Source: Anaerolineaceae bacterium (GTDB lineage: Bacteria; Chloroflexota; Anaerolineae; Anaerolineales; UBA11579). From it: a DNA stretch of 35,880 bases. Shown here piece by piece: positions 27,378 to 35,576 of this stretch. The DNA is taken from NCBI GenBank assembly GCA_900299355.1, contig OMJR01000056.1:1-35880 (forward strand), written 5' to 3'. Position numbers and translations under genes: made by a program. How positions within the stretch are numbered: the stretch's first letter is position 1; each line of letters starts with the position of its first letter. Below the pieces are notes generated by a model that ran no database searches, was not told where the DNA came from, and was given only the letters and a program-made list of their open reading frames with translations.

Positions 27378-29993
27378 CTAGCGCGACACCGCCAGCTTGA
27401 CCACCTTGCCCTGGGCGTTCATCGTGATGCGGGCGTAGTGGTTGTGCACGTACTGGTTGTTCTGCACCTTCTTGCTCAGCGTCACCAGTTGGCGGTTGGG
27501 GGCCATGCCCGGCGTCGACTTGCCGTGGTTGTGGTGGGGCAGGTGGCAATCGTGGCCGCGGCATTCGGTGTGCTCGTGGCTGAAAGTCAGGCTGCTATCC
27601 ACCATGCCGGGCAGGTAATCCTTGACGATGGATTTGACCGAGGCAATCGTCTCTTGCGGTAGCTCGGCCGGGTCCACCAGCGGGTTCTCAGCGCGGTCAC
27701 AGACGGTCTTGATTTCGGGCGCAGCGCCATTCGGGCGCATGATGCGCTTGGGCACCGAGCCGGCCGTGACGGCCTGGGCCAGCGGGTCGCCGTAGAGCAC
27801 AAAACTAATCAGCGTCTTCTGGTCTTCGCCGTCCAGGTATCCCTGGCGGCGGTGCATGGCGTGGGCCAGCGCAATCTTGGCGCGGCGCAGCGCTTCGCCC
27901 ACCGGGTGGCCTTCGTTCATCAGCTTCCAGAAGGTCTGCCCCAGCAAATCGGCGGCAATCAGCGGGGTGGTCACCGAACCATAGCTGGTGCAGGTGGAAC
28001 CGACCACGGCCTTGGAGCCGGAAGCCAGGAACTTCAACGACAGGGCGTTCTCGACAGTCTTGCCAATCACGTTGGCGCCGTAGCAGGCTTCACTAAAGAC
28101 CACCTGGGGCGCGCGGCCGCTGTTGATGACATCTTCAGGGCTGAGCGCTACCGGGTAGTCAGGGCCCTCGGGGGTCTCCACCGGGTCGCGCTGACCGTAC
28201 CATTCAGGGGCGTCCTGCAAACCGTGTAGGTTGAAGTAGGCTACTTCCAGCTTTTGGCCGGCGTCCTTGGGCAGCTTGCCGCTGCCAGTGGGCGGGGAGA
28301 TGGCCAGCTTGCGCGGCTCGCCAATCGTGCGGTACACAGAGTGCGAGGCGCGGCGCCAAATCTCGGCGCTGTAGCCAAAGCTCTTGCGCTGTGGGCGGCC
28401 GATGCCGAAGCCGGCCAGGATGCGGCCAATCGTGTCGCGCAGACCTTTGGACTTGGCCTGGCTGCTGCGGCTGGCGGCAATTTTCTCCAGCGCCTTAATC
28501 AGCAGGCTGGGGTCGCCGTTGGCGCCGCCCGGCAGGCGGCCAACCGGCCAGGTGGGCACGAAGTAATTCTCGTCCATGCTGGCGTAGGGGTTATCGGAGG
28601 GCACGTCTTTATCGTCATCGTCCACCGGGTTGGGCAGGTGGTGGAAGGGCACCACTTGCGGCCCACCGACGATGAGCAGGGCGCCAATCATTTCGCCCTT
28701 GGCGCGCAGGGCTTCATCTAAATCGGAGAGCAGGTGTTTGATGGTCCAGGCGTTGTCGGCCTTGGCCGGCTGCAAACCGAACTTCTCGGTGTAGCTGGCT
28801 TCGTCGGCATAAATCAGGTGCGCATCCCAGTTGGGGTGGGCGCCGGTGGTGCTGGCGACCGCGCGCATGGCCTTATCAATTGCGGCCCAATTGTCCTTGC
28901 CGTACTGCTTCTCCAGGCCGGCCTTGGTGCTCAACACCACATAGGCCGGGAAACGGCCATCCGCGCGCAGGCGCAGCTGCTCGGTGGTGGTGTCCATCTC
29001 GTCCAGGTCAATCGGCGTCTCGGGCTCGGGGTCGATTTCAAAGGGACTCTCGCCTTTGGGCTCAGGTTCGGCCATCGGGCTGAACTCTTCGTCCAGCACT
29101 AGTTTGGGCTTGGCAGGCGCGGGCTGCGGCGCGGTGGGCTGCACCTCAACCGGGTCCACCGCCTTAGCGGTCGCCACGCTTTCCAGCGCGTTCCAGCCCA
29201 AAGCAGCCGCCACCTTGGCGGGGATGGGCGCCTCGACCATGTGCTGCAATTGCTTGGGCCACAGACCGATGAAGGCGTGCTCGCTGCCCCACAGGCGGCG
29301 GGCGACCTGGCCAGTGACGTCCTCGGCCACGCATTCGTGCAGCAAATTCACGGCGCCGTCTTCCTCGCCGCTTTCCATCAATTGGTCGGCCAGCATCAGC
29401 TTGAAGTACAGGGTGTGCGGCCACTGGCTGCTGTAGAGTTCAATCAGGTTGTGCAGGGCCAGCCAGCTGTACTCCATCGCTTCGGCGATTTGCAGGTGCA
29501 GCATTGCCGGCAGGGGGCTGGGCGGCTGGCTCATCAGCGCGGCTTGCACTTGCGCCTCGGCCTTCTGCAGGTCGCCGGCCAGCAACGAATTCTGGGCGCC
29601 GATCAACTGCTGGGCCCAGGTCTCGATGCCCTCAGGCGCACTCTCGGGCTGCTTCAGGACGGTGGCCGCAGCGCGGGCGCTCTCGGCCATATCGGGCTGC
29701 ACGCGGCGGGCCACATGCGCCAACAGCTCCTGCGCTTCGGCGTACTGCGGGTCCAGCTTGGTGAGCCGGGCCAGGATGGCTAGCGCCTTGGTGGCCTTGC
29801 CTTCCTGCAGCAGGGCCTTGGCGCGCAGGTATTCAACCGGCAAATCGTAGGGGAAGGCGTTAAGCCAATCCTCGGAGAGGGCGCGCACGAAGCGTTCCTC
29901 GCCGGACTGCAAGGCAATCTGCAGCAGGGTCAGCACTTCGGCGCGGTCAACCGCCATGCCTTCACTGATTTGTTTGTGTAATGTCCTGTTCAT
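27378..29993 (-). CDS. TPR-like N-terminal region plus C25 (gingipain-like, caspase-fold) cysteine peptidase domain, with His/Cys-rich C-terminal segment
   Basis: GALLIVGGPQVVPF, DNPYASMDENYFVPTWPVGRLPG, AYFNLHG (His codon 28224-28226), VVFSEACYGA (Cys codon 28083-28085), KAVVGSTCTSYG; ATGA overlap with upstream TPR gene. Confidence 0.85.
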   Translation of the reverse strand: MNRTLHKQISEGMAVDRAEVLTLLQIALQSGEERFVRALSEDWLNAFPYDLPVEYLRAKALLQEGKATKALAILARLTKLDPQYAEAQELLAHVARRVQPDMAESARAAATVLKQPESAPEGIETWAQQLIGAQNSLLAGDLQKAEAQVQAALMSQPPSPLPAMLHLQIAEAMEYSWLALHNLIELYSSQWPHTLYFKLMLADQLMESGEEDGAVNLLHECVAEDVTGQVARRLWGSEHAFIGLWPKQLQHMVEAPIPAKVAAALGWNALESVATAKAVDPVEVQPTAPQPAPAKPKLVLDEEFSPMAEPEPKGESPFEIDPEPETPIDLDEMDTTTEQLRLRADGRFPAYVVLSTKAGLEKQYGKDNWAAIDKAMRAVASTTGAHPNWDAHLIYADEASYTEKFGLQPAKADNAWTIKHLLSDLDEALRAKGEMIGALLIVGGPQVVPFHHLPNPVDDDDKDVPSDNPYASMDENYFVPTWPVGRLPGGANGDPSLLIKALEKIAASRSSQAKSKGLRDTIGRILAGFGIGRPQRKSFGYSAEIWRRASHSVYRTIGEPRKLAISPPTGSGKLPKDAGQKLEVAYFNLHGLQDAPEWYGQRDPVETPEGPDYPVALSPEDVINSGRAPQVVFSEACYGANVIGKTVENALSLKFLASGSKAVVGSTCTSYGSVTTPLIAADLLGQTFWKLMNEGHPVGEALRRAKIALAHAMHRRQGYLDGEDQKTLISFVLYGDPLAQAVTAGSVPKRIMRPNGAAPEIKTVCDRAENPLVDPAELPQETIASVKSIVKDYLPGMVDSSLTFSHEHTECRGHDCHLPHHNHGKSTPGMAPNRQLVTLSKKVQNNQYVHNHYARITMNAQGKVVKLAVSR

Positions 29994-35243: not shown

Positions 35244-35576
35244 TTAGATGGGCCAGTTGATTTGCAACACGATGTAGTACCCGCCGGCCATCATGCCCAG
35301 GCCGAGCGTGGTGAGGAAAATCCCCACACCCGCCGCGGTCTTGACCATCGCCGACAAGTTATCCAGCAGCGCCGTCGCATTGCCGACCAGGCCGGCCATA
35401 TCGTCGGCCAAGCCTTTCTGCAGCAGGCGAGTGGCCTGGGCGGTCAGCTTCTTGGCGCCACGGCCACTGCCGCGGCTGACCAGGATGAACATGCCCAGGA
35501 TGAGCGTGCACATGCCCAGGAAGAACATGGCAATCGCCATCACTACCATCGTGTCAATCTGATTGATTTCGTACAT
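35244..35576 (-). CDS. Small two-TM membrane protein of unknown function
   Basis: 110 aa from MYEINQ with GGAGG RBS; hydrophobic helices MVVMAIAMFFLGMCTLILGMFILV and VGIFLTTLGLGMMAGGYYIVL. Confidence 0.75.
   Translation of the reverse strand: MYEINQIDTMVVMAIAMFFLGMCTLILGMFILVSRGSGRGAKKLTAQATRLLQKGLADDMAGLVGNATALLDNLSAMVKTAAGVGIFLTTLGLGMMAGGYYIVLQINWPI

Follow-up and report, generated by a model that had tools for sequence, protein, structure and literature searches.

A conserved Chloroflexota cassette for a two-transmembrane protein, a giant TPR protein and a predicted gingipain-like protease, and its putative sigma-54 regulon

We examined a 35,880-nucleotide (nt) stretch of DNA from an Anaerolineaceae bacterium (OMJR01000056.1 in assembly GCA_900299355.1; hereinafter the window; contig G000:C56 of a metagenome-type assembly of 2.1 Mb with relatives in the Anaerolineales), and in it a cassette that joins a small membrane protein to a giant tetratricopeptide repeat (TPR) protein and a predicted caspase-fold protease of the C25 (gingipain) type. 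Its three open reading frames (ORFs) lie on the minus strand from 35576 to 27378 and code, in this order, for a 110-aa two-transmembrane (2TM) protein (35244..35576), a 1742-aa TPR solenoid (29990..35218) and an 871-aa TPR-C25 protein (27378..29993). The 2TM gene starts with the ATG at 35576, a start position shared by its homologs, and is preceded on the same strand by a GGAGG Shine-Dalgarno sequence (35582..35586) and, ~48 nt 5′ of the start codon, by a predicted sigma-54 promoter (35624..35638), TGGCAC-N5-TTGC (TGGCACCCTTCTTGC), which is an exact fit to the textbook form GG-N10-GC. It is separated by 25 nt from the TPR gene, whose stop codon overlaps the start of the C25 gene in an ATGA (29990-29993). 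The C25 gene is in turn followed, again on the minus strand, by an intrinsic terminator (27320..27347) comprising a 12-bp GC-rich stem and a T run (-26.2 kcal/mol; z = -4.72), a stability that was matched by 0 of 200 shuffled sequences. By this layout the 2TM, TPR and C25 genes constitute a single operon.

The C25 protein passes the curated cut-off of the Pfam profile PF01364 (E = 1.3e-11; 44.8 bits against 23), and its N-terminal part matches the TPR_19 and TPR_14 models. DSSP analysis of an AlphaFold model delineates the N-terminal helical TPR domain as residues 1-265 (29199..29993, minus strand), with the catalytic region and a C-terminal beta-rich part occupying residues ~343-871 (27381..28967, minus strand). 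Both the helical-repeat region and the gingipain-like domain had been proposed in the original prediction for this locus, which was made from the DNA letters alone, and both are borne out. The model of residues 336-871 (predicted local distance difference test, pLDDT, 86.8; predicted template modeling score, pTM, 0.90) recovers the gingipains Kgp and RgpB as the top four matches in a Foldseek search against the PDB (E = 1.9e-10 to 1.2e-9, probability 1.00; individually 1.9e-10 for Kgp and 3.4e-10 for RgpB). Below them come SAVED-CHAT (1.4e-5), human separase (7.7e-5) and Csx29/TPR-CHAT (2.1e-4). As modeled, the catalytic domain has the caspase/gingipain fold, and structure prediction thus confirms the fold that had been suspected. 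In a Pfam scan of the protein the CHAT domain (PF12770) was not found, and the separase profile was not among the matches.

With the gingipains (MEROPS C25), its nearest solved folds, the protein also shares PF01364 and the HG...C order of the dyad, here the predicted catalytic His590 (in NLHG; 28224..28226, minus strand) and Cys637 (in SEACYG; 28083..28085, minus strand). Residues H590, G591 and C637 and their neighbors are invariant in 51 sequences from the order (Anaerolineales), down to ~30% identity. It differs from the gingipains, to which it is 11-13% identical, in lacking an obvious signal peptide or secretion domain, in its N-terminal TPR domain and in being encoded behind the giant TPR and 2TM genes. 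Two distant homologs of family f55 (L204 and L211) have the dyad destroyed, with the Cys replaced by Asn in one, and the His by Leu and the Cys by Gly in the other, and are likely pseudoproteases; the dyad is strongly constrained within the order but not everywhere. An invariant SDNPY motif N-terminal to the dyad may, by eye and not by superposition, match the region of Asp163 in RgpB, the residue that binds the P1 Arg (PMC4357240). Asp467 would then be a candidate counterpart of RgpB Asp163, a lead for which a sequence-only PDB search with the C25 profile gave no gingipain to align, returning only TPRs or nothing credible.

The 2TM protein, for which Pfam and NCBIfam searches yielded zero matches, has hydrophobic segments at about residues 9-33 and 81-104 that are joined by a basic loop with a net charge of +4. 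A further copy of the start of its gene, with the same promoter and a different upstream insert, is present on another contig of the assembly (L159; G000:C108:1-400) as a strain variant. The TPR protein matches Pfam TPR_19 with E = 4.4e-47, with up to 17 TPR stretches in the scan; its length is conserved at 1.7-2.1 thousand residues within the order and is 2.2-2.5 thousand residues in other classes, and its best-conserved part is the C-terminal ~130 aa. As a transmembrane segment or obvious signal peptide was found in neither the TPR nor the C25 protein, both are probably cytoplasmic; hence, unlike in the gingipains, the gingipain-like domain would be used inside the cell.

The arrangement 2TM-TPR-C25 is kept on the same strand in 88 of 88 loci that have a full TPR gene and upstream room, a set that counts some genomes twice (there are 78 distinct upstream regions) and excludes loci whose contig ends within the TPR gene. 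The 2TM gene is usually ≤60 nt from the TPR gene, and no locus with room was without it. Co-occurrence of the homologs across genomes had been set beforehand as a test of the original prediction that the three genes form one unit; together with the confirmed ORFs, the ATGA overlap and the terminator, this result sustains it. Relatives of the C25 protein are encoded in 264 stretches of the GTDB collection, and all 80 listed of these are from Chloroflexota, the cultured Leptolinea tardivitalis among them. The cassette, mostly in single copy, is present in 50 of 61 relatives and is thus near-core in the order; its usual neighbors are housekeeping genes or its own regulators. The same three genes recur in the same arrangement outside the order (L200, L202, L203, L205 from Kallotenue papyrolyticum, L206 and L209), and on a maximum-likelihood tree built from the catalytic region there are 14 changes of family label, against a minimum of 12 and a shuffled mean of 28.9. 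The C25 tree, in other words, tracks the host families, and from the gene order, the recurrence outside the order and this tree we infer that the module is old and vertically inherited. Among the departures from the common layout, L050 (G060) has the C25 gene, on a long branch, directly after the 2TM gene with the giant TPR gene absent, and at L047 and L054 neither the 2TM nor the TPR partner was found beside the C25 gene.

The predicted sigma-54 promoter is likewise a recurrent feature: GGCAY-N5-TTGCW stands at the same place in 61 of the 78 distinct cassettes, as against 28 of 883 control ORFs (3.2%) of the same loci, an enrichment whose p-value of 1.6e-58 overstates independence because the sequences are related. 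Genome-wide, the exact TGGCAC-N5-TTGC is near background (8 versus 5 for the reversed control), and the enrichment of GGCAY-N5-TTGCA, seen in most cassette genomes, extends to a genome of family f11 without rpoN (G033). For this reason the analysis relied solely on sites that are conserved between genomes. Another exact sigma-54-like match within the window (21830-21844) falls inside an ORF (20538-22766) and was set aside as probably due to chance. In the Anaerolineaceae, genes for RpoN, a PAS histidine kinase and an NtrC-type regulator lie directly upstream of the cassette and are co-directional with it (32-41 loci). In the window genome rpoN is encoded elsewhere (G000:C82:11000-22000; L197, L198), behind a sigma-54 site of its own (TGGCATAGAACTTGCA), and is followed by two homologs of the PAS kinase and the NtrC-type regulator, the families of which were assigned in relatives, where the layout is the same. 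A sigma-54 site ahead of the rpoN operon was seen in 8 of 8 genomes examined, the window genome included, and an autoregulated circuit is therefore predicted. Both the regulation of the cassette and its conservation are well supported by these comparisons.

In other families, genes for a ~440-aa protein without a name and for a second FtsZ (FtsZ2) follow the C25 gene or precede the cassette. In the window genome these two form an operon on a separate contig (G000:C140:6137-8740; L219) with its own sigma-54 site (TGGCACGCCTCTTGC). Such a site lies ahead of the 440-aa/FtsZ2 operon in G000, G020, G018, G012 and G017, whereas in G035, G048 and G060 it is found ~1.5 kb upstream of FtsZ2; loci with an altered FtsZ2 behind a 440-aa gene and a sigma-54 promoter include L219, L230, L228, L245 and L250. 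The FtsZ2 proteins pass the cut-off of TIGR00065 (319-394 bits against 295; canonical copies score 419-461) and keep the G-loop GGGTG[TS]G (30/30) and, in all 25 tails checked, an LD[ILV]PAFLRRR-like C-terminal peptide. Their T7 loop, in contrast, reads N-x-D-F-[AS]-[HN] (QVDFSA in one case) as against the canonical NLDFAD, so that the second catalytic Asp, which equals D212 of Escherichia coli FtsZ, is absent from all 30. As the E. coli D212A mutant retains 7% of GTPase activity (PMC8142252), FtsZ2 is predicted to hydrolyze GTP slowly and to form stable filaments. Like the archaeal FtsZ2 and plant FtsZ1/FtsZ2 paralogs, it stands beside a canonical FtsZ with the G-loop and C-terminal peptide kept; it is set apart from them by the replaced T7 Asp, the sigma-54 promoter and the co-occurrence with a protease cassette.

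The distribution of these genes parallels that of the cassette. Among genomes of the order that are ≥90% complete, FtsZ2 is present in 38 of 38 cassette carriers versus 1 of 7 non-carriers (p = 9e-7), although this association is weaker than the numbers suggest because it reflects approximately three independent losses (families f11 and f6, and G026). In a sample of the phylum, all f11 genomes have a single FtsZ and lack both the cassette and an rpoN match above the cut-off; in the same sample, strong hits of the 440-aa family are confined to cassette genomes (17/17; p = 1.5e-22). This family (L118:12747-14078; alignment A4), which is tied to the cassette across the Chloroflexota, has a motif GxGxHYFPDxxHY; a Pfam search matched no family, and by eye the protein resembles TIM-barrel glycosidases, the usual Glu of the EPN motif not being conserved, so that we claim no function for it. 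Sigma-54-like sites were also noted before a pair of genes for a SnoaL-like protein and a polysaccharide deacetylase (L231, L248, L251 and G000:C37:10669), which may belong to the regulon as its fourth member.

Putting these strands together, we tentatively propose, somewhat short of even confidence, that the cassette might be the protease arm of a regulated envelope/division-remodeling program in Chloroflexota, rather than a defense system. The PAS kinase would sense a signal and phosphorylate the NtrC-type regulator, whereupon the sigma-54 promoters would fire; the kinase-regulator-rpoN operon would amplify itself, and the cassette and FtsZ2 would be made together. The giant TPR solenoid could then be anchored by the 2TM protein at the membrane's inner face, with the TPR-C25 protease docked on it. 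From there the protease could cut a single substrate or a small number of them in the cytoplasm or close to the membrane, the FtsZ2 assembly or its partners possibly included, and so start or end a remodeling step. A slow-hydrolyzing FtsZ2 might constitute a stable filament needing such a protease switch. In this scheme the roles of sensor or scaffold, protease and anchor that were originally suggested for the TPR, C25 and 2TM proteins remain plausible. A sharper version, which we regard as doubtful, would have the caspase-like protease time a sigma-54-triggered, FtsZ2-based remodeling of division or the septum in filamentous Chloroflexota, as a separase-type analog with a hydrolysis-impaired FtsZ partner. 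Eukaryotic separase (C50) has a comparable helical solenoid and C-terminal caspase-like domain (the Foldseek match above), but the C25 protein has no Pfam separase match and other partners, and its tie to division would run only via the association with FtsZ2.

Besides the few independent losses behind the co-occurrence, several observations weigh against this proposal. The FtsZ2 and sigma-54 linkage is restricted to the order plus one same-class relative; cassettes of other classes mostly occur with a single FtsZ and no upstream sigma-54 site. FtsZ2 thus cannot be a universal substrate, and the core function must be broader than FtsZ2. Two genomes (G026 and G002) keep rpoN with no cassette detected, and, as the two distant members without the dyad imply, the C25 protein would not be a protease in some lineages. 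The substrate and output of the cassette are things that we infer, and the link to envelope and division is one of guilt by association. The core 2TM-TPR-C25 set, optionally with the 440-aa protein, appears to have arisen before it became linked to sigma-54 and FtsZ2.

Discussion of bacterial caspase-like proteases has mostly concerned secreted virulence enzymes and the executioners of defense systems. The cassette protease is instead vertically inherited, probably cytoplasmic and near-core in a large order rich in uncultured lineages. With a small and concrete regulon of three operons and a cultured carrier in Leptolinea tardivitalis, the roles of caspase folds in bacterial cell biology and of two FtsZs in Anaerolineales become directly testable questions. 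The components have known folds, and, as its protease activity is predicted only, we class the module with the known modules of helical repeats and caspase-fold proteases. We found no paper linking these elements in the open-access literature, subscription journals lying outside the search; within that limit neither the combination nor the way it is regulated has been described, in accord with the original prediction of a novel unit.

An alternative that we consider unlikely is that the genes form an export or exopolysaccharide (EPS) regulon of the RpoN-PrsK-PrsR-PrsT type, which controls PEP-CTERM/EPS systems and similarly unites rpoN, a kinase, an NtrC-type regulator and a large TPR protein; the TPR protein would then be PrsT-like, and the C25 protein would process surface or export proteins. 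PrsT is indeed the best NCBIfam match of the TPR protein (1.3e-68), the regulator matches TIGR02915, and in some genomes sigma-54-like sites lie ahead of a LytR-CpsA-Psr gene and of the SnoaL/polysaccharide-deacetylase pair. However, both scores are under their cut-offs (231.8 versus 312.2 bits for PrsT; 328 versus 503 for TIGR02915), generic TPR and NtrC models score equally well or better, and neither an obvious signal peptide nor a transmembrane segment was found in the C25 protein; the protease and FtsZ2 are additional to the Prs-type set. Exosortase (PF09721) is absent from the window genome and over the cut-off in 1 of 41 genomes; with it missing and the scores sub-threshold, membership in the PEP-CTERM/exosortase systems was rejected.

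It is rather improbable that the C25 protein acts chiefly as a scaffold or pseudo-enzyme in a complex serving as a structural platform, with a dispensable dyad. The loss of the Cys from L204 and L211, and of the His too from one of them, would agree with such a role, as would the 2TM gene lying beside the C25 gene with no giant TPR gene between them at L050, but the invariance of H590, G591, C637 and their neighbors across the 51 sequences of the order speaks against it.

Least probable of all is defense or abortive infection, wherein the TPR protein would sense an invader and the caspase-fold protease would activate the 2TM protein as a membrane effector: the architecture of TPR, caspase fold and small membrane protein and the reach of the Foldseek matches to SAVED-CHAT and Csx29 fit it, but it is made unlikely by the vertical, near-universal and mostly single-copy inheritance with a distribution that is not patchy, by the housekeeping genes or own regulators that usually flank the cassette, by the sigma-54 control common to the cassette and FtsZ2, and by a PADLOC search with zero matches, a phage search without a match and a plasmid search that gave only distant rhizobial C25 proteins. 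The original analogy to Craspase and protease-activated membrane effectors is consequently not supported. TPR-CHAT/Csx29 does likewise combine helical repeats and a clan CD caspase fold in one protein, but here the domain is C25 and not CHAT, and a giant TPR protein is encoded separately as its partner. As had been noted at the outset, there is no sign of a clustered regularly interspaced short palindromic repeat (CRISPR) locus, no CRISPR-like repeat being found in the window; gRAMP was not searched for by profile, and the recurrent neighbors are regulators, FtsZ2 and housekeeping genes.

Past the terminator, at 27120-27300 of the window, lies a long imperfect palindrome (GTCATTCCGAGCGAGG ... 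CCTCGCTCGGAATGAC) that resembles a repeat element.

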